Shown: piece after piece, positions 4,093 through 60,046 of the stretch | Layout: each line of letters starts with the position of its first letter | Position numbering within the stretch: position 1 is the first letter of the stretch | The notes under the pieces: model-generated | What the model saw: only the letters and a program-made list of their open reading frames with translations | Told to the model about the DNA's origin: nothing | Database searches by the model: none | Made by a program: the position numbers and the translations under genes | Assembly (NCBI RefSeq): GCF_005845365.1 | Contig: NZ_CP040509.1 | Coordinates: 1,240,001 to 1,304,000 of the forward strand | Length of the DNA stretch: 64,000 bases | Origin: Rhodoluna limnophila | Lineage (GTDB): Bacteria; Actinomycetota; Actinomycetes; Actinomycetales; Microbacteriaceae | Direction of reading: 5' to 3'

Positions 4093-6237
4093 CTAGAGCA
4101 TGCAGCTTACGCACTCATCGACAGCGGTACCCTCGAGGGCCATCTGGCGAATACGTACGTAGTAGATGGTCTTGATGCCTGCGCGCCAAGCCTGGATCTG
4201 GGCCTTGTTAACATCGCGAGTGGTTGCGGTGTCTTTGAAGAACAAGGTCAGTGAAAGGCCCTGGTCTACGTGCTGGGTTGCAGCTGCGTAGGTGGCAATG
4301 ATCTTCTCTGGGCCGATTTCGTAGGCGTCGTCGTAGTACTCAAGGTTGTCGTTGGTTAGGTAAGGAGCTGGGTAGTAAACGCGGCCCAACTTACCCTCTT
4401 TACGGATCTCAATCTTTGACGCAACCGGGTGAATCGAGCTGGTTGAGTTGTTGATGTAAGAGATCGAACCGGTTGGTGGCACAGCCTGAAGGTTCTGGTT
4501 GTAGATACCGTCCTTCATGACTGCAGCCTTTAGCTGGCGCCAGTCTTCCTGGTTAGGAATCTCGATACCGGCGTTGGCAAACAACTCTGCAACGCGCTCG
4601 GTCTCAGGTGACCAAACCTTGTCGGTGTACTTGTCGAAGAACTCACCGGTTGCGTACTTTGAGTTTTCAAAACCACCAAAGGCCTTGCCTCGTTCGCGAG
4701 CGATGGTGTTTGAAGCCTTTAGAGCGTGGAACAGAACGGTGTAGAAGTAGATGTTGGTGAAGTCAATACCTTCTTCAGAGCCGTAGTGAACGCGCTCGCG
4801 TGCCAGGTAACCGTGAAGGTTCATCTGGCCCAGACCAATTGCGTGAGACTCATCGTTGCCGTACTTGATTGAGGTCACTGAATCGATGTCGCTCAGGTCA
4901 GAAACAGCAGTCAAAGCACGGATAGATGCCTCAATGGTGCGACCAAAGTCTGGTGAGTCCATTGCCTTGGCAATGTTCAATGAACCTAGGTTGCAAGAGA
5001 TGTCCTTGCCGACATCCTTGTAGCTGAGGTCAGCGTTGTAGGTGGTTGGGGTGTTGACCTGAAGAATCTCAGAGCACAGGTTTGACATGTTGATGCGGCC
5101 AGCAATTGGGTTCTCGCGGTTCACAGTGTCTTCGTAAACGATGTATGGGTAGCCCGACTCAAACTGAAGCTCAGCAATGGTCTCGAACAAAGCACGTGCC
5201 TTGATCTTGGTCTTGCGAATGCGAGCGTCATCAACCATGTCCTGGTAGTGCTCGGTGACCGAGATGTCACTGAACGGAACACCGTAAACGCGCTCAACAT
5301 CGTATGGAGAGAACAGGTACATGTCATCGTTGTTCTTAGCCAGCTCAAGGGTTACGTCTGGAATAACCACACCAAGACTCAGGGTCTTGATACGAATCTT
5401 CTCGTCGGCGTTCTCACGCTTGGTGTCGAGGAACTTCATGATGTCTGGGTGGTGAACGTTTAGGTAAACCGCACCCGCACCCTGGCGTGCGCCAAGCTGG
5501 TTTGCGTAGCTAAATGCGTCTTCCAACATCTTCATAACCGGGATAACGCCCGATGACTGGCCTTCGATCTTCTTGATCGGTGCACCTGATTCACGGATGT
5601 TGGTTAGTGACAGTGCCACACCGCCACCGCGCTTTGAAAGCTGCAGCGATGAGTTGATGGCACGTGAGATTGACTCCATGTTGTCTTCGGTACGAAGCAA
5701 GAAACATGAGACAAATTCGCCGCGCTGGGCCTTGCCACAGTTTAGGAAGGTTGGGGTTGCCGGCTGGAAACGACCGGTGATCATTTCTTCAACCAACATG
5801 AGGGCACGGTCTTCGTCGCCCTCGGCAAGGGTAAGTGCCACCATGACCACGCGGTCTTCGAAGCGCTCTAGGTAGTGCTTGCCATCAAAGGTCTTTAGCG
5901 CGTAGCTGGTGTAGAACTTGAAGGCACCTAGGAATGACTCAAAACGGAACTTGAATGAGTAAGCGAAGTCGTGGATCTTCTGCAGGAACTCAAAGCTGTA
6001 GGCGTCAAGAATTGGCTTCTCGTAGTAGTCGTGCTCAACCAGGTAGTCAAGGCGCTCTTTGAGGTTGTGGAAGAACACGGTGTTCATGTTCACGTGCTCT
6101 AGGAAGTACTCGCGAGCAGCCTGCTTGTCTTTATCGAACTGAATCTTGCCGTCTTTGTCATACAAGTTCAGCATTGCGTTCAGCTCGTGGTAGCTGTATC
6201 CGGTGCGAGGGGCCTTCTCAATCAGAGTGTTTTCCAC
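4093..6237 (-). CDS. nrdE: Class Ib ribonucleoside-diphosphate reductase, alpha subunit (NrdE)
   Basis: NrdE is the catalytic subunit that reduces NDPs to dNDPs. The 714-residue length and the lack of an N-terminal ATP-cone match class Ib. The last residues, DECVSCML, contain the redox cysteine pair C709/C712 that passes electrons from the glutaredoxin-like NrdH to the active site. The finger-loop and substrate region [11 protein letters not shown] carries an active-site cysteine. Its start overlaps the end of nrdI by 16 bases, which points to translational coupling. Nothing looks damaged. Confidence 0.97.
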
Positions 6238-7250: not shown

Positions 7251-8768
<1,518 letters not shown>

Positions 8769-11322: not shown

Positions 11323-11742
11323 TCAGCCCTCACTGCCAATTGCGCTGGCTTTATCAAAACGGCGTTTGGCCTTGACGGTGACCGAAACATCTTGAAACTC
11401 ATGATTAATTGGTGCGTTTGGTTTGTGCACTGTGATTTTTGCCTTGAGCACAGGGCTGGCTGGACCACCAAAATTTAGGGCCAAATCCAAAAGGCGCTGG
11501 GCCAAAGTCTCGATCAGGTCGACCGGCTCGTGCTTCACGTTCTCGATGATGGCTTCGGCCAACTCACCATAGTGAACCGTGTTGCTGAGGTCATCGGTAA
11601 TGGCAGCTTTGTGACCGGCAACCCAAACCGTCGCATCAATCAAAAACTCCTGGCCGTTTTCGCGCTCAAACTCAAACACCCCGTGGTGCGCAAAAACTTT
11701 TAGCCCAGTGAGCTTGATTTTGAACTGCTGAACGGCGGCCAT
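11323..11742 (-). CDS. folB: Dihydroneopterin aldolase
   Basis: FolB splits dihydroneopterin into 6-hydroxymethyl-dihydropterin and glycolaldehyde. The 139-residue protein shows FKIKLTGLKVFAHHGVFEFERENGQ, the pterin-binding N-terminal strand with the conserved HHGV motif, and VDLIETLAQRLLDLAL in the middle, as in the family. It is longer by about 15 residues at the C-terminus than minimal FolB proteins. It sits between folP and folK with gaps of 3 bases on each side. Confidence 0.95.
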   Translation of the reverse strand: MAAVQQFKIKLTGLKVFAHHGVFEFERENGQEFLIDATVWVAGHKAAITDDLSNTVHYGELAEAIIENVKHEPVDLIETLAQRLLDLALNFGGPASPVLKAKITVHKPNAPINHEFQDVSVTVKAKRRFDKASAIGSEG

Positions 11743-53997: not shown

Positions 53998-54302
53998 ATG
54001 GGGTTGCCATTCGAGTACTTTGCCTCACAATTGCCTGCTATGGACAGGCTTCGAGGCTTGAAAAAAATATTTGGCTTCTTCTTGGCGGTTCTTGTTGTGA
54101 TGGTGCCAATTCAAGTAGCGGAAGGGGCCAGCTTCAAGAATTGCACAGAAGCACGAAGGTGTACCCGGGTGGAGTCGCGAAAGCCGCAGGCATAAAGAAC
54201 AAAGGTGGTAAAGCTTCACGCACTCCTAAAGTGAGCGCCAGTATCTACAAATCCATCAGCAAAATGGACCGAGACAAAGATGGTATTGCTTGCGAGAACT
54301 AA
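53998..54302 (+). pseudogene. Secreted excalibur calcium-binding protein, interrupted by a -1 frameshift
   Basis: An ATG with GAGGAAA upstream opens a signal peptide (GLKKIFGFFLAVLVVMVPIQ) and the start of an excalibur domain, FKNCTEAR. In this frame it stops at 54195. The rest of the domain is in the next frame: KVYPGGVAKAAGIKN, a linker, and the calcium-loop end DRDKDGIACEN before a stop at 54302. Rereading one A at 54156 (CGA then AAG GTG TAC) joins both parts exactly, so either one base is missing in the genome or sequence, or a -1 slip occurs. A later ATG at 54040 could be the true start. It is divergent from the protease gene. Confidence 0.8.
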
Positions 54303-54362: not shown

Positions 54363-57300
54363 TTAACTGACCTTCGCGGCAGCGGCCATTTCGAAGGAAT
54401 CCGGATCCATAGGAAAACGTAATTCCCACCAAATGGATATGGGTTTCGACCCTTGATGCCTTAGGTAATCAACGGGGCCGATTAGCTTGAAATTTATCGT
54501 TCCGTTTGGACCCGTTGCCTTTTCCCTCATAGCAAGAAGCACATCACGCCCTGAGTTTCTCTGGGAAATGTATCGTTGCCCAACCGTTGATTCGACGCTG
54601 GTCTTGTTCTGTGAATCCCAGTGGAATAACTCAGGAGAAATCGCATAGTCGTGATATCGGATCGAGTCTGAGATCGAACTGTCTTTCTGAAGATTCACAA
54701 ACAACACATCGACCTTGGCCTCAGGTATGTAATAAACACCTGCAACAGATCCAGACAGAACCCGTCGGGTCCCATTCTCATAAATGGAGCTCCCTGGCAA
54801 GTGCGCGTAGCCGAGACCAGCCAACAGCTCCGCTCGTGAATAGGTGGCATGAACTAAGAACGGATGCTGACCACTGGCGAGTTTGAAAGCGCCACCAACG
54901 TGTTTAATTCTGTGCCTAAGCACTGCAAATAGGTTTGCCGCCTCAAATTTGAACACCTCCGAACCTCGAAGAACATCTAGGGCTTCGTCAATGGACTGCC
55001 ATTCGGATTTATCCCAGGGCCTTCTGCCATCGTCGAAGAGGTTCCAGAACAACATGCTCGCCAATCGACGGTCTGAGCCAGAGAGTTCCGCCCAAGTGGG
55101 GCCATTTGAGGCTAACAATCTCGAAAACCCATCCAAACGGTTGGTGTCATCGATGTGCAGCAACTTGGGAATCCTCCTAAGGAGCGATTCATCTATGGAG
55201 GATATTTCAAAATCAACAAGTTTGGCTTCCGACAATGCGTTTACCCAACTTCTTCCGCTTCCTCTGTAAATTTCAAAGCTTTCGCGGCCACTGGCCTCGA
55301 GATAACTGTGAAAGTCAGTTGTGCCAGCGCTTTTTATTTCCTGCACAAGCCTCTGCCAACTCGGTGATATTTGACGCTTGAGTAGATCGAGTATGTATTC
55401 CTGGCTGAGACCGTCTAGCTGAATTGCGCTTCCCGAAGGAAGGTAGGGGAATCCCTCTTGAAGATTTTGAATAACTTCGGAACGAGTTCTTCCGGTGAGA
55501 GCAGCGAACTTGGTATCCATTCTGTATTCGGCCCGATGTGCACCGATAAAGTCCAAAATTAGGACATGATCTTTGCCAGGTGAACACCTGAGGCCACGGC
55601 CAATCTGCTGCAAAAAGACCACCGGACTCTCTGTGGGCCGCAACAGGATAACGGTGTCTACTTCTGGAATGTCCACGCCCTCATTGAAAACATCAACTGT
55701 GGATATTGCCTGGATGAACCCCGACCTAAGCTCTTGAATAATTAGGTTCCGATTCGATGTGACCCCAGTGACAGCTTTAGTCCTGACCCCCATTTGCGTG
55801 AACTCTTGGGCTACCTGATTTGCGTGTTCAACTGATACGCAAAATATCAACGCCTTAATCTTGGAGATGTCCGGCACCTTGTTGTTTATTTCTCTCAGTA
55901 CCCTTTTGTTCCTGAAAGTATTGGAAGTAACCAAATTATTTAGAGTTTTTGATTCATACCGACCAGAAACCCAAGGAAGCTGACGGTAATCTAGCTCCTC
56001 TCCCAAGCCAAAATAATGGAATGGGGCTAGCAGGTCTTGGCCCAATGCATCCCATAACCTCAATTCCGTAGCAATTCGACCACCAAAAACCTCCTGCCAA
56101 ATTTGATCAACGCCGTCTGCTCGCTCCGGAGTAGCGGTTAATCCAACTACCTGCGAGGCGTCCAAACTATCGAAGAGGGCTCGATAGGAAGCTGCCTCTG
56201 CATGGTGGAATTCATCGATAATTATGTGTTCGAAGTGATCCGCAGCGAGCTCTTGAATTTTGCCTCGCCCAAGTGACTGAATTGAGCCGAAGACGTGGCG
56301 CCATTCCTTAGGTCGTTGGCCGTCCACAAGTAGCTCACCAAAGTGGGAGTCACCAAGAACCTGCCTGAACGTTACAAGAGCCTGCTGCAAAATTTCTTGG
56401 CGGTGGGCGACAAACAACAGAGTGGGTCTCGGTCGGCCGGCACGAATAAGACGCTTGTAATCAAGCGCAGCCAATACAGTTTTCCCAGTGCCAGTGGCTG
56501 CAACGACTAGGTTACGAGTATGCCCGAAGACTTCCCGCGCAACAGCAAGCTCTTCAAGCATCCGCAACTGGTGAGGTCTGGCTGTTACTTCAAGGCTCGG
56601 CAAGAGAAATTGGTCGGTCGGGGCGCTCTTTGACTGTCTAGCAAGCGCCTCTTCGAGAGCGTCGCCATATTTGGCAGTCGAATAGTGGCGATAATCACCA
56701 GACTCCCAATAAGTATCGAATGCTGCCTGAAACTTTGCAAAAAGTTCCGGTGCCTTCGCCTCCGAAAGTCGAACATTCCACTCTGATCCAGTGGTGAGTG
56801 CTGAATAGCTCATATTTGAGCTTCCGATGTAAGCAGTTGAAAAACCAGAATTCCGATGAAACAGCCAGGCTTTGGCGTGAAGGCGATTGGACACCGGCAG
56901 CAAGTCGATGCGCACCTCAACACCCAAATCATTAACTAGGCGATCGATTGCTTTCTTATCCGTTGCACCCATGTAGGTTGTTGTGATCAATCGAACAGGA
57001 ACGTTTCGATCCCTGAGCTTTTTTAGCTGACCATCTAGTAGCCGCAATCCCGACATCTTTATGAAAGAAACAAGAATCTCAACTCGATCAGCGGTTGCAA
57101 GCTCTCTCTCGAGTTCTAGATCGATCCGGGGCTCACCTTTAGTGTTCGTGAATAGGGCAAGCTCACTAAGCGGGGTTAGAGGTCGAAGGCTCCTGAGCCT
57201 CTCCGCATTGAATAGGGGAGCTCCAGTGAACCAACGAAGTTCCTTGAAGGCTCCTTCTTGAGCCTCTGCTAATTCAAAATCAAGTGCCTCGGAAAGGGAT

Positions 57301-57509
57301 GCGACAAGCAAATTGAACTCGCCAAGATTTTCCGCCTGTCCGAGTCTTCCCCTGACTAATTTGTCTACATACTGCGCAAAGAGACGCTTTTTTGCCTCAA
57401 GATCGGCAACTTCGATGACTCCAGCCTGATCTGACCCTAGGAGCTCGGCCTCATTAGCACTGAGAAGCTGCTCGTATAACCCGTCGCTGAAATGCTGTGA
57501 ATTCCCCAT
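54363..57509 (-). CDS. PLD-nuclease / superfamily 2 helicase / DUF3427 protein
   Basis: The 1048-residue protein has three parts. Residues about 90-290 form a phospholipase D-like domain with RLHAKAWLFHRNSGFSTAYIG and SSN (H211, K213; the usual HKD aspartate is His218). Residues about 300-650 are a DEAD/DEAH-type helicase with RPHQLRMLEELA, AATGTGKT (337-344), DEFHH (432-436), GLTATPERADG and QQIGRGLRCSPG (motif VI). The C-terminal part (about 800-1040) is DUF3427, with TVGQRYISQRNSGRD. This order is known from phage-defence-type helicases but the target is not known. TAGTCT lies 6 bases before the ATG, so it has its own leaderless promoter, though the Nudix gene ends only 35 bases upstream on the same strand. 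Confidence 0.9.
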   Translation of the reverse strand: MGNSQHFSDGLYEQLLSANEAELLGSDQAGVIEVADLEAKKRLFAQYVDKLVRGRLGQAENLGEFNLLVASLSEALDFELAEAQEGAFKELRWFTGAPLFNAERLRSLRPLTPLSELALFTNTKGEPRIDLELERELATADRVEILVSFIKMSGLRLLDGQLKKLRDRNVPVRLITTTYMGATDKKAIDRLVNDLGVEVRIDLLPVSNRLHAKAWLFHRNSGFSTAYIGSSNMSYSALTTGSEWNVRLSEAKAPELFAKFQAAFDTYWESGDYRHYSTAKYGDALEEALARQSKSAPTDQFLLPSLEVTARPHQLRMLEELAVAREVFGHTRNLVVAATGTGKTVLAALDYKRLIRAGRPRPTLLFVAHRQEILQQALVTFRQVLGDSHFGELLVDGQRPKEWRHVFGSIQSLGRGKIQELAADHFEHIIIDEFHHAEAASYRALFDSLDASQVVGLTATPERADGVDQIWQEVFGGRIATELRLWDALGQDLLAPFHYFGLGEELDYRQLPWVSGRYESKTLNNLVTSNTFRNKRVLREINNKVPDISKIKALIFCVSVEHANQVAQEFTQMGVRTKAVTGVTSNRNLIIQELRSGFIQAISTVDVFNEGVDIPEVDTVILLRPTESPVVFLQQIGRGLRCSPGKDHVLILDFIGAHRAEYRMDTKFAALTGRTRSEVIQNLQEGFPYLPSGSAIQLDGLSQEYILDLLKRQISPSWQRLVQEIKSAGTTDFHSYLEASGRESFEIYRGSGRSWVNALSEAKLVDFEISSIDESLLRRIPKLLHIDDTNRLDGFSRLLASNGPTWAELSGSDRRLASMLFWNLFDDGRRPWDKSEWQSIDEALDVLRGSEVFKFEAANLFAVLRHRIKHVGGAFKLASGQHPFLVHATYSRAELLAGLGYAHLPGSSIYENGTRRVLSGSVAGVYYIPEAKVDVLFVNLQKDSSISDSIRYHDYAISPELFHWDSQNKTSVESTVGQRYISQRNSGRDVLLAMREKATGPNGTINFKLIGPVDYLRHQGSKPISIWWELRFPMDPDSFEMAAAAKVS

Positions 57510-57544
57510 CGATTTAGACTATCGAGACCCCAGGACACTCCAGC

Positions 57545-57961
57545 CTATGACGGGTCAAGATTGTCTTGACCCAATAGAAGCTGAACAGCGGGAAGGTCTG
57601 GTTTTGCCCATGAGATCGATGCGAGTTCACGTACCTCGAGCCATAAGAATGCATCATGGTCGGTGCTTTGGATACACGCTGAATCATCTATTTTGCAAAG
57701 CACGGTTTCGAGCCGAACGACAGTTGTACCCACCCTTGTATCTGAGATGTCTAGGGTTCGGAGCGGCCTGCAAACAATACCCATCTCCTCAAAAATTTCC
57801 CTGGCCAAAGCTGCATGGGGTTTCTCACCAGCCTCCACCTTCCCACCAGGAAATTCCCACTCTCCGGCCGCAGCCTTGTGTGGGGCCCGTCGACAGGCGA
57901 GCACCTTGGAATCTCGGACAATTACAGCAGCTACAACGTGCAGAGGATTTCGATCAGTCAC
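57545..57961 (-). CDS. Nudix hydrolase, MutT-like
   Basis: The 138-residue protein carries a perfect Nudix box, GKVEAGEKPHAALAREIF followed by EEMGI (40-62, G-x5-E-x7-REUxEExGU). VVAAVIVRDSKVLACRRAP is the usual MutT first strand, so a nucleoside triphosphate or modified dNTP is the probable substrate. The GTG start has TACGTT 6 bases upstream (leaderless). It precedes the PLD-helicase on the same strand, and such Nudix-DUF3427 pairs suggest that both act together. Confidence 0.92.
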   Translation of the reverse strand: MTDRNPLHVVAAVIVRDSKVLACRRAPHKAAAGEWEFPGGKVEAGEKPHAALAREIFEEMGIVCRPLRTLDISDTRVGTTVVRLETVLCKIDDSACIQSTDHDAFLWLEVRELASISWAKPDLPAVQLLLGQDNLDPS

Positions 57962-58008
57962 CCTGCAAACGTACCAACTCTGTCAGCAGCAACTTGTAGC
58001 CTTGCCTT
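57962..58008. promoter_or_regulatory. Divergent leaderless promoters of the two nuclease-helicase operons
   Basis: Only 47 bases separate the Nudix (minus) and MazG-like (plus) start codons. A -10 box TACGTT (57968-57973, minus strand) and a -10 box TAGCCT (57997-58002, plus strand) each lie 6 bases before a start codon. The two promoters must overlap in their upstream parts, so the operons can hardly be regulated separately. Confidence 0.7.
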
Positions 58009-58329
58009 ATGGAATTTGGCGAAATCATCAAGGAACTAAGAGAATTTGTGGCTGAGCGGGAATGGCAGCAATTTCACAGCCCAGAAAACCTCGCCAAGAG
58101 CATCTCTATCGAGGCAGCCGAACTATTGGAGCAATTCCAATGGGGAGAGCCGGATGACGAAACGAATGTGAACGATGAACTCGCCGATGTTCTGACCTAC
58201 TGCTTACTGCTTGCCGACCACTACGGTTTGGCACCGGCTGAGCTCATCCACAACAAGCTTTCCAAAACGCGCATAAAGTACCCCGTTGAAAAAGCACGCG
58301 GCCGAAGCGATAAATATGACCGACTTTAA
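58009..58329 (+). CDS. MazG-like nucleotide pyrophosphohydrolase
   Basis: The 106-residue protein has the MazG/dUTPase-like metal motif: EAAE (35-38) and then ELAD (57-60), in the order ExxE-x18-ExxD, and KYPVEKARGRSDKYDRL at the end, as in the short RS21-C6/MazG-like group. It would cut an (d)NTP or alarmone to the monophosphate and pyrophosphate. The ATG has TAGCCT 6 bases upstream (leaderless). Its 3' end overlaps the next gene by 14 bases. Confidence 0.92.
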   Translation: MEFGEIIKELREFVAEREWQQFHSPENLAKSISIEAAELLEQFQWGEPDDETNVNDELADVLTYCLLLADHYGLAPAELIHNKLSKTRIKYPVEKARGRSDKYDRL

Positions 58330-60046
58330 GATCGAGACGTTTCCGTTTGACCATGAAGCTATCACGACATGGGGGCTTGCAGACCCAGTCGGCATTGACT
58401 GGCCAGTCGTCTATACCTTGAGCGACCAGAAGCACATTTATGTTGGGGAAACTCTCAATGCAACTTCGCGTCTACATCAGCATCTGAAGACAGAGGGTAA
58501 ACAAGGGCTTAGCCATGTGCAAATCATCTTGAATCCAAGATTCAACAAGTCGGCATGCCTCGACCTTGAGTCGCAACTCATTAAGCTTTTCGCTGCCGAT
58601 GGCACACACAGGGTTCTCAACGCAAACTCGGGAATCACAGACGCAAATTACTTTGAGCGAGATAAGTACCGAGACTCTTTCAGCGAACTCTATGAAGCCT
58701 TGGTTCGAGATGGGCTGCTTTCAAGACCGATTCCGGAAATCGTCAACAGCAACTTGTTTAAGTTCTCACCCTTTAAAGCTCTGAATACTGAGCAGGCGTT
58801 AGTGGTGTCTGCAATTACCGAGAAGATCTTGGATCTGGTTGGCCCATCGGGCGGCGGTCAATTGATTGTTCAAGGCGATCCGGGGACAGGTAAGACAATC
58901 GTGGCAATTTACTTGATAAAGCTGCTTCGAGACATCGCACTATTTAAGGATGATGAGATTTCAGAACAGGAGTCAGTATTTTCAGAACTGTTCACCACTT
59001 CAAGTGCTGAGAAACTTAGAGGCCTGAAGATTGGCTTGGTCGTACCCCAGCAGGCGCTCCGTAAGACTCTTCAAACGGTGTTTGCGCAAACTCCAGGCCT
59101 CGATAAGGCAATGGTTCTCACTCCATTTGAAGCCGCTGACTCAGCAGACGATTTTGACCTACTAATCGTGGACGAAGCTCACCGTCTGGGCCAAAGAGCA
59201 AACCAGCCATCCGCAGCTCAAAATAAGAAGTTCTCTTACCTGAATGAAAAACTCTATGGAACTGACGACCCTGCAATTACACAACTCGACTGGATCAAAA
59301 CCAAGAGCCGAATTCAACTGCTCCTTCTTGACACTGCACAGGCCATCAAGCCAGCCGACCTGCCATTGAACACCACGCAGTCACTAATCGACAGGGCAAT
59401 GGCTGAAGAGTCTCTTTTTAAGCTGACTTCGCAGATGCGAGTCTCCGGCGGAAAGGAGTACCTTGAGTTCGTCAGGGCTCTATTCGCTGATACACCCGAG
59501 GCGGCGAGAGACTTCAGTGGATACGATCTGCGTTTCTACAGCGATGCCTTTCGAATGAGACAAGACATTTTGGCTTTGAACGAGCAGCACGGATTAGCGA
59601 GGCTGCTAGCCGGATTTGCCTGGCCTTGGGCATCTAAAAAAGACAAAGAGGCCATAGACATCGAGCTCAATGGGATGACTCTCCAATGGAATCAGACAGT
59701 TACAGATTGGGTGAACTCCCCGACATCTCACTTAGAGGTAGGAAGCATCCACACAATTCAGGGTTATGACTTGAATTATGCAGGTGTGATTCTTGGAAAT
59801 GACATTGCATACGACGCCGAAACAAAACGCGTGGTCTTTGTTCGTGAGAATTATCACGATGTGAAGGGGCGTGAGAATAATGCTGCCAGAGGTATCGTCT
59901 ACTCAGATGAAGATGTTCGACACTGGGTCCTAAACATTTACCGAGTACTACTAACTCGCGGAATCAAGGGAACATTCATCTATGTTTGCGACCCAGCATT
60001 AAGAGAGCACCTTAGTGCGCTATTCGAGCCACACCAAAAGTTTTGA
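58316..60046 (+). CDS. GIY-YIG nuclease fused to DUF2075 (Schlafen group 3-type) helicase
   Basis: The 576-residue protein has an N-terminal GIY-YIG nuclease (about 28-100: VVY at 31-33, IYVGET at 41-46, R52, catalytic E85 in LDLESQL). From about 155 comes a DUF2075 ATPase (the helicase module also found in group III Schlafens): Walker A GDPGTGKT (187-194), Walker B DEAH (286-289), TSQMRVSGGKEYL and VGSIHTIQGYDLNYAGV. The last part, NIYRVLLTRGIKGTFIYVCDP, is the usual end of this helicase family. I chose the ATG at 58316, inside the MazG gene, because it gives the normal start MTDFKIETF. Both enzymes look active. Confidence 0.93.
   Translation: MTDFKIETFPFDHEAITTWGLADPVGIDWPVVYTLSDQKHIYVGETLNATSRLHQHLKTEGKQGLSHVQIILNPRFNKSACLDLESQLIKLFAADGTHRVLNANSGITDANYFERDKYRDSFSELYEALVRDGLLSRPIPEIVNSNLFKFSPFKALNTEQALVVSAITEKILDLVGPSGGGQLIVQGDPGTGKTIVAIYLIKLLRDIALFKDDEISEQESVFSELFTTSSAEKLRGLKIGLVVPQQALRKTLQTVFAQTPGLDKAMVLTPFEAADSADDFDLLIVDEAHRLGQRANQPSAAQNKKFSYLNEKLYGTDDPAITQLDWIKTKSRIQLLLLDTAQAIKPADLPLNTTQSLIDRAMAEESLFKLTSQMRVSGGKEYLEFVRALFADTPEAARDFSGYDLRFYSDAFRMRQDILALNEQHGLARLLAGFAWPWASKKDKEAIDIELNGMTLQWNQTVTDWVNSPTSHLEVGSIHTIQGYDLNYAGVILGNDIAYDAETKRVVFVRENYHDVKGRENNAARGIVYSDEDVRHWVLNIYRVLLTRGIKGTFIYVCDPALREHLSALFEPHQKF

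Follow-up and report, generated by a model that had tools for sequence, protein, structure and literature searches.

Do four genes in two small operons that face away from each other on an actinobacterial chromosome form one defence system, or are they two neighbours with separate lives? The genes lie at positions 54363-60046 of a 64,000-nucleotide stretch of Rhodoluna limnophila DNA (NCBI RefSeq assembly GCF_005845365.1, contig NZ_CP040509.1, positions 1,240,001 to 1,304,000; the window hereafter), in a genome of 1.40 Mb on one contig. We found that they are a real and recurrent combination, present in a minority of loci, which joins a type IV restriction pair of known kind (arm 1) to an undescribed nuclease-helicase pair (arm 2). 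The recurrence of the four-gene set in distant bacteria suggests, without proving it, a single defence that watches over DNA and its nucleotide precursors alike. The four open reading frames stand exactly where an earlier, sequence-only reading had placed them, as two divergent operons separated by exactly 47 bases:

54363-57509, minus strand: predicted SauUSI-type type IV restriction enzyme with PLD nuclease, SF2 ATPase and C-terminal SRA-like DUF3427 domain (Pfam, PADLOC, profile, residues)
57545-57961, minus strand: Nudix (deoxy)nucleoside triphosphate pyrophosphohydrolase, NudG/MutT-like, PDC-S07 candidate (Pfam, PADLOC, NCBIfam, PDB)
57962-58008, no strand: 47-base intergenic gap between the divergent operons (coordinates)
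58009-58329, plus strand: MazG-like all-alpha nucleoside triphosphate pyrophosphohydrolase of the DCTPP1/RS21-C6 kind (Pfam, PDB matches, residues)
58316-60046, plus strand: predicted GIY-YIG domain joined to a Schlafen-group-3 SF1 helicase, DUF2075 (Pfam, alignment, AlphaFold2, Foldseek)

The Nudix gene lies 35 bases upstream of the SauUSI-like gene on the same strand. For the helicase gene, the most likely start is the ATG at 58316, which we preferred to the TTG at 58286 because its methionine is invariant in a 55-row alignment; from this start, the gene overlaps the MazG stop by 14 bases. The overlapping promoters proposed by the sequence-only reading did not appear: a sigma-70 consensus scan of 57880-58120 returned no site, although other promoter types remain possible.

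The SauUSI-like enzyme and its Nudix neighbour

Pfam assigned the domains PLDc_2, ResIII, Helicase_C and DUF3427 to the 1048-residue product of 54363-57509, with the PLD nuclease, the SF2 ATPase and the C-terminal recognition domain all in a single chain. The PADLOC model mREase_IV PDLC03659 matched this protein at E = 1.5e-254, and a profile built from the window protein plus ten of its relatives matched the SauUSI structure 7clg at E = 3.5e-133 over positions 107-994. The catalytic histidine is kept (SauUSI H119, window H211). The SauUSI residues around the flipped 5-methylcytosine (5mC), as assigned in PMC7913695, are Y831, F841, I842, D858 and W868; they correspond to Y927, F937, V938, D954 and W964 of the window protein. 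The only change in the pocket is from isoleucine to valine at V938, and D954 and W964 are invariant in 11 rows. The single-sequence alignment of the DUF3427 domain is weak (14.6 bits), but the 11-sequence profile spans the domain.

From these matches and residues, we predict that the PLD-helicase is a SauUSI-type restriction enzyme (type IV, dependent on 5mC or 5-hydroxymethylcytosine [5hmC]), and arm 1 would be an already known kind of defence enzyme and not an unknown nuclease-helicase. The defence role put forward in the sequence-only reading thus gains support for arm 1, because of its kinship to SauUSI. The protein shares with SauUSI of Staphylococcus aureus (7clg; PMC7913695) the PLD, SF2 ATPase and SRA-like C-terminal domains in the same order, the catalytic histidine, the 5mC pocket and the lack of an adjoining cognate methyltransferase. 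It differs from SauUSI in carrying about 100 extra N-terminal residues, in falling into a second subgroup (PADLOC PDLC03659, not PDLC03658) and in being accompanied by a Nudix enzyme and the MazG/helicase arm.

Pfam detected no methyltransferase among the four genes, and the source genome held 0 matches to the C5-methyltransferase family PF00145. Among 393 genomes of the window's class, our control sample, a C5 methyltransferase was present in 24 of 62 with a SauUSI-family enzyme and in 191 of 331 others (Fisher p = 0.008, uncorrected for kinship). Both the absence from the source genome and the lower frequency in SauUSI genomes are what a 5mC-cutting enzyme would require. Full-length SauUSI occurred in 3 of the 60 genomes of the genus sample.

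The protein encoded at 57545-57961 matched Pfam NUDIX and the PADLOC candidate family PDC-S07 (E = 8.8e-38), a Nudix family found beside type IV enzymes; the Nudix proteins of a Haematomicrobium locus (L140) and of Lactiplantibacillus plantarum matched PDC-S07 as well. Its PDB relatives were 5x1x, 3r03 and NudG 2rrk. The window protein shares the Nudix fold with NudG (Orf135); its best NCBIfam model is the NudG-type PRK10546, at 82.4 bits, below the 156-bit cut-off. MutT homologues adjoin SauUSI homologues in Streptococcus (PMC7641849), and in S. suis PDC-S07 was co-located with type IV restriction-modification genes in 23 of 23 cases (PMC12813430). A Nudix gene beside a type IV enzyme is thus a neighbourhood already in print, but the available text of these two reports mentions neither the MazG/GIY-YIG-Schlafen arm nor a role on 5-methyl-deoxycytidine triphosphate (5-methyl-dCTP).

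The MazG and helicase pair

The MazG-like protein matched PF12643 at 66.7 bits (cut-off 27) and aligned with DCTPP1/RS21-C6 chains at E values from 5e-14 to 7e-10 and with 4qgp at 5e-18. Residues W19, H23, E35, E38 and W45, invariant in 82 of 82 rows, align with W47, H51, E63, E66 and W73 of RS21-C6/DCTPP1; we take the tryptophans and glutamates of this set to be active-pocket residues of DCTPP1. The window protein thus shares its fold and pocket residues with that enzyme.

Its neighbour matched the Schlafen-group-3 helicase family PF09848, presumably the family formerly named DUF2075, at 209.4 bits (cut-off 24). An AlphaFold2 model reached a predicted local distance difference test score (pLDDT) of 87.6 and a predicted template modelling score of 0.85. 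Through a Foldseek search with this model, we recovered RecD2 (3gpl, E = 8e-11) and also Upf1, Dna2 and RecD. Family match and model agree in predicting a Schlafen group 3 protein with an SF1 helicase fold. The domain motifs named in the sequence-only reading were borne out by Pfam for PLD/helicase/DUF3427, Nudix, MazG and PF09848, but the GIY-YIG match of the window protein (20.0 bits) fell under the Pfam cut-off of 22.6. The L. plantarum relative exceeded that cut-off, at 27.4 bits, and residues Y43, Y52, R62, H66 and E95 of the GIY-YIG motif are invariant in the 55-row alignment. In the AlphaFold2 model of this domain (pLDDT 82.5), the five best PDB matches were all UvrC GIY-YIG domains, with probabilities of 0.96-0.98 and E values of only 0.08-0.11. 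When we searched PDB sequences with the arm-2 profile, nothing matched at E = 0.001.

We collected the best 80 of 327 arm-2 relatives with their neighbourhoods, several of them on short contigs. MazG adjoined the helicase in 76 of these 80 loci, a coupling beyond what chance would give, and the two genes overlapped by 14 bases in 59 and by 20 bases in 3 of the 62 measurable loci. MazG and the GIY-YIG/Schlafen-group-3 helicase are a stable, uncatalogued pair. NCBIfam gave no match better than 0.002 for the window helicase. The PADLOC matches were weak and partial (Nhi, AbiO and PDC-S41, E from 1e-6 to 4.4e-8), and at 1e-10 PADLOC returned none for the helicase relatives of L140 and L. plantarum. 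The helicases behind these models share this weak similarity with arm 2, but the models do not contain the GIY-YIG and MazG arrangement. The statement in the sequence-only reading that no named system holds this set of four does not extend to arm 1, as described above; it stood for the rest, in that we found no description of the four-gene set or of the arm-2 pair in the open-licence articles searched, where no paper containing DUF2075 named defence in its title.

Some relatives of arm 2 were arranged differently. At 8202-10286 of L045 (G086), MazG lies downstream, not upstream, of the helicase. On a Paenibacillus plasmid (L212, 5522-8581), a DUF3578 protein immediately precedes the GIY-YIG helicase; according to PMC7641849, DUF3578 serves McrB-type enzymes as a specificity module. 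A Lactobacillus amylolyticus plasmid (L217, 2687-8731) carries adjoining genes for a Nudix protein, a DUF262 protein that matches PADLOC HEC-05 (8e-34), a restriction endonuclease and a GIY-YIG helicase.

Recurrence of the four-gene set

A clear SauUSI gene lay within 10 kb of arm 2 in 8 of the 80 loci, and a Nudix gene as well in 6, so that all four genes together are a recurrent minority and not the regular state. Three weak SauUSI-like hits, in L065 (90 bits), L094 (62) and L131 (96), were left out of the count of 8, although L065 does fall in the SauUSI cluster of nine loci in a neighbourhood clustering. Several contigs entered both the locus and the genome collections (L061 is G029, L062 is G053, L077 is G014, L097 is G059, L104 is G013, L063 is G431, L112 is G477 and L114 is G110). 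All four genes stand together in the window, in G029/L061 and G053/L062, in G070, in Agromyces L085, L089 and L090, in Haematomicrobium L140 and on an L. plantarum plasmid. The nearest carriers are G029/L061 and G053/L062, metagenome-assembled genomes of the window's own genus.

The arrangement of the arms varied between carriers. They are divergent in the window and L061 and likewise in L062, with 4 kb between them; tandem in G070, L089, L140, L072 and L074; and convergent in L085 and L090. In G070, MazG, helicase, Nudix and SauUSI form a same-strand run. The Nudix stop abuts the SauUSI start in L089 and overlaps it by 4 bases in L140. On the L. plantarum plasmid, in another phylum, Nudix, SauUSI, MazG and helicase all point the same way, spaced by -14, 17 and 17 bases. 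SauUSI, MazG and helicase occur without Nudix in two Arthrobacter loci and on a faecal contig (tandem, labelled phage). Schlafen-group-3 helicases that gave no GIY-YIG match also lie near SauUSI in G121, G255, G330 (with MazG), G151 (with Nudix) and G090; these loci are L199, L200, L201, L202 and L056, and the helicase N-terminus in L200 has no Pfam match.

On a tree of the helicases (a quick LG+G4 tree from which L075, L083 and L096 of the 80 loci are absent), the SauUSI neighbourhood requires 7 changes, of which branches with good support force at least 6; with shuffled labels the average is 10.5. Of the 393 control genomes, 81 had a helicase match, 62 had a SauUSI-family enzyme and 20 had both, within 10 kb of each other in 6 of the 20. 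Where full-length arm 2 and SauUSI shared a genome, they were neighbours in two cases out of three.

Relatives were also found on plasmids. A scan of viral_contigs for phage cargo gave one distant helicase as its sole match, and a phage collection gave four records, one of which, L218 ('Bacteriophage sp.'), carries SauUSI, MazG and helicase; L218 may well be bacterial despite its label. On a Hymenobacter plasmid from a third phylum (L221), Nudix and SauUSI form a pair, and some 12 to 15 kb away are two DUF2075 genes and a further restriction system. At 8009-11608 of L050 (G003), MazG, a 158-residue helicase open frame and Nudix occur with no SauUSI nearby, perhaps as a decayed set.

In the window's relatives, the arms were acquired separately at purL. 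Arm 2 stands alone behind purL in G014/L077, G013 and L068, and in G029 arm 1 separates arm 2 from purL, its stop overlapping the purL stop. In G053 (L043), the arm with Nudix and SauUSI is bordered by degenerate purL 3'-end copies at 5720-5937, 7699-7795 and 11426-11643 (218 bases at 92% and 97 bases at 73-76% identity), as if the purL 3' end were an integration site.

Modified cytosine and the competing explanations

Tentatively, and at somewhat less than an even chance, we read the locus as two restriction modules, separable from each other, that join forces against DNA containing 5-modified cytosine and against its precursors. By homology, the SRA-like domain of the SauUSI-type enzyme would recognise 5mC or 5hmC in incoming DNA, and ATP-driven translocation and a PLD cut would follow. 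Modified dCTP, whether salvaged or made by a phage, would be kept out of host DNA by the pool enzymes, which might also starve phages that build modified genomes; host DNA that took up modified dCTP would become a target of the host's own SauUSI-type enzyme. In the least certain step, the GIY-YIG/Schlafen-group-3 helicase may act as a second nuclease motor on the same or the resulting DNA. The arms would move separately and be brought together repeatedly.

According to PMC10742078, both E. coli Orf135/NudG and mammalian RS21-C6/DCTPP1 hydrolyse 5-methyl-dCTP with high specificity, and a rate for NudG is given in PMC3744803. The two small enzymes of the window come from or lie near these two mutually unrelated folds. 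Since they resemble families that include 5-methyl-dCTP hydrolases, modified cytosine may be policed in the nucleotide pool as well as in DNA; we infer a pool-guarding role for both. Unlike them, the known NudG and DCTPP1/RS21-C6 enzymes are encoded by chromosomal housecleaning genes and do not share an operon with a restriction enzyme. A stronger version seems unlikely to us: a surveillance cassette in which two nuclease motors and two unrelated 5-modified-dCTP hydrolases make one defence that checks polymer and precursor, with the pool enzymes providing self-immunity without a methyltransferase, assembled repeatedly from separate arms and moved across phyla by plasmids. No protective methyltransferase accompanies type IV restriction enzymes. 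If 5-methyl- and 5-hydroxymethyl-dCTP are indeed kept from host DNA, this would be self-immunity at the level of the precursor, and the stable, widely spread MazG and GIY-YIG/Schlafen-group-3 helicase pair would have a function.

A number of results weigh against the policing of modified cytosine by all four genes. The arms were apart in 72 of the 80 loci, and SauUSI was present in 3 of the 17 genomes with full-length arm 2 against 59 of the other 376, which is chance level. An obligate four-gene system is rejected, because the arms are apart in those 72 loci, with no SauUSI within 10 kb, and co-occur in genomes at chance; separation of the arms, which the sequence-only reading had named as a ground for refuting its proposal, is largely what the loci show, and the joint system survives only as a recurrent association, with the forced changes on the tree, the L. 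plantarum run and the neighbours in two of three genomes in its favour. The Arthrobacter arms do without Nudix, and outside Actinomycetota only 2 of the 7 plasmid regions inspected, drawn from nine records whose helicase is nearly full length, had MazG next to the full-length helicase. The window Nudix reaches no curated NCBIfam cut-off, its relatives are split between NudG (5 of 8) and PRK08999 (3 of 8) as best model, and its substrate could equally be 8-oxo-deoxyguanosine triphosphate (8-oxo-dGTP). Among 30 SauUSI enzymes of the window's subgroup, only 5 had Nudix within 1.5 kb, and since it is so rarely near, SauUSI does not require it; as an obligatory partner it is rejected for this subgroup, whereas the pairing is supported in the other, SauUSI-proper subgroup, in 5 of 6 Actinomycetes genomes (both subgroup counts draw on the 30 best-scoring loci from the 62 SauUSI genomes).

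Controls with other restriction genes point the same way. The type I gene HsdR was within 10 kb of the helicase in 1 of 16 genomes (101 of 119 genomes covered, with places down to 36 bits), and the SauUSI excess of 6 in 20 over this is not significant (p = 0.10). A C5 methyltransferase lay within 10 kb of the helicase family in 6 of 21 genomes among the places listed (21 of 46 genomes had places among the matches listed). It stood in the 10 kb flank of arm 2 in 6 of 80 loci, by 6 separate changes (L063, L065, L066, L081, L091 and L092, none of them among the eight clear-SauUSI loci). Genomes with the GIY-YIG helicase show no shortage of C5 methyltransferases, at 8 of 17 against a base rate of 215 of 393. 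Because it coexists with these enzymes, the helicase is probably not a general 5mC-dependent nuclease, a role for which we found no support in either the 8 of 17 carriers or the 6 of 80 loci.

The association of the arms is recurrent, and defence-island clustering accounts for part or all of it. A purely coincidental account, in which a SauUSI and Nudix operon and an independent MazG and helicase module share hot spots, here the purL 3' end, without any joint function, is a serious possibility, though short of an even chance. The solitary arm 2 behind purL in G014/L077, G013 and L068, the inserted arm 1 in G029 and the purL copies in G053 all fit it, as do the chance co-occurrence in genomes and the C5 methyltransferases that neighbour arm 2 about as often as SauUSI does. 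Yet hot spots explain poorly the four-gene run in another phylum, with its gaps of -14, 17 and 17 bases, or the same-strand run of G070. Moreover, the neighbour counts are equal although C5 methyltransferases occur in 55% of genomes (215/393) and SauUSI-family enzymes in 16% (62/393), so that the neighbour rate of SauUSI is the higher of the two.

Three further accounts would give the small enzymes another task, and all have low probability in our view. They might tune a nucleotide signal or guard the nuclease-helicases in the manner of an antitoxin, without acting on deoxynucleoside triphosphates (dNTPs); the tight one-to-one coupling of MazG and helicase, in 76 of 80 loci and with overlapping genes, would suit such a role, but the locus holds no known signal synthase, and we regard it as improbable. 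Slightly less probable still is nucleotide depletion, in which pyrophosphohydrolases activated by infection would drain dCTP or other dNTPs and halt phage replication, with DNA degraded by the nucleases. In its favour, the two enzymes are small and coupled in operons, and DCTPP1 is active on unmodified as well as modified dCTP (PMC7162842); against this, Pfam detected no sensor, regulator or activation domain in the four genes, and the families are those of housecleaning enzymes. Genome maintenance, with both arms as repair helicases and sanitisers of the pool (8-oxo-dGTP, deoxyuridine triphosphate) and no link to phages, is very improbable. The Nudix enzyme is partly MutT-like, arm 1 matches RadD in its SF2 core and the arm-2 model matches RecD2/Dna2, but the RadD match is partial and far under its cut-off beside a type IV match at E = 1.5e-254. 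Maintenance also sits badly with the patchy presence of SauUSI (3 of 60 genus genomes) and with plasmid-borne relatives. A known housekeeping role, which the sequence-only reading had named as refuting its own proposal, was found for neither arm.

Around the four genes, the G+C content is 48.5-51.1% in the 52-60 kb bins of the window, against 53.4-57.8% in the 8-52 kb bins. The same low-G+C stretch includes, between purL and the defence genes, a secreted-looking trypsin-like protease (PF00089; 52480-53898, minus strand). At 53998-54302 on the plus strand, small open reading frames in two frames jointly resemble one split gene ending in DRDKDGIACEN, which we take to be of the Excalibur type. 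Elsewhere in the source genome, a type I HsdR match above the family cut-off lies at G000:C1:67978-68262.

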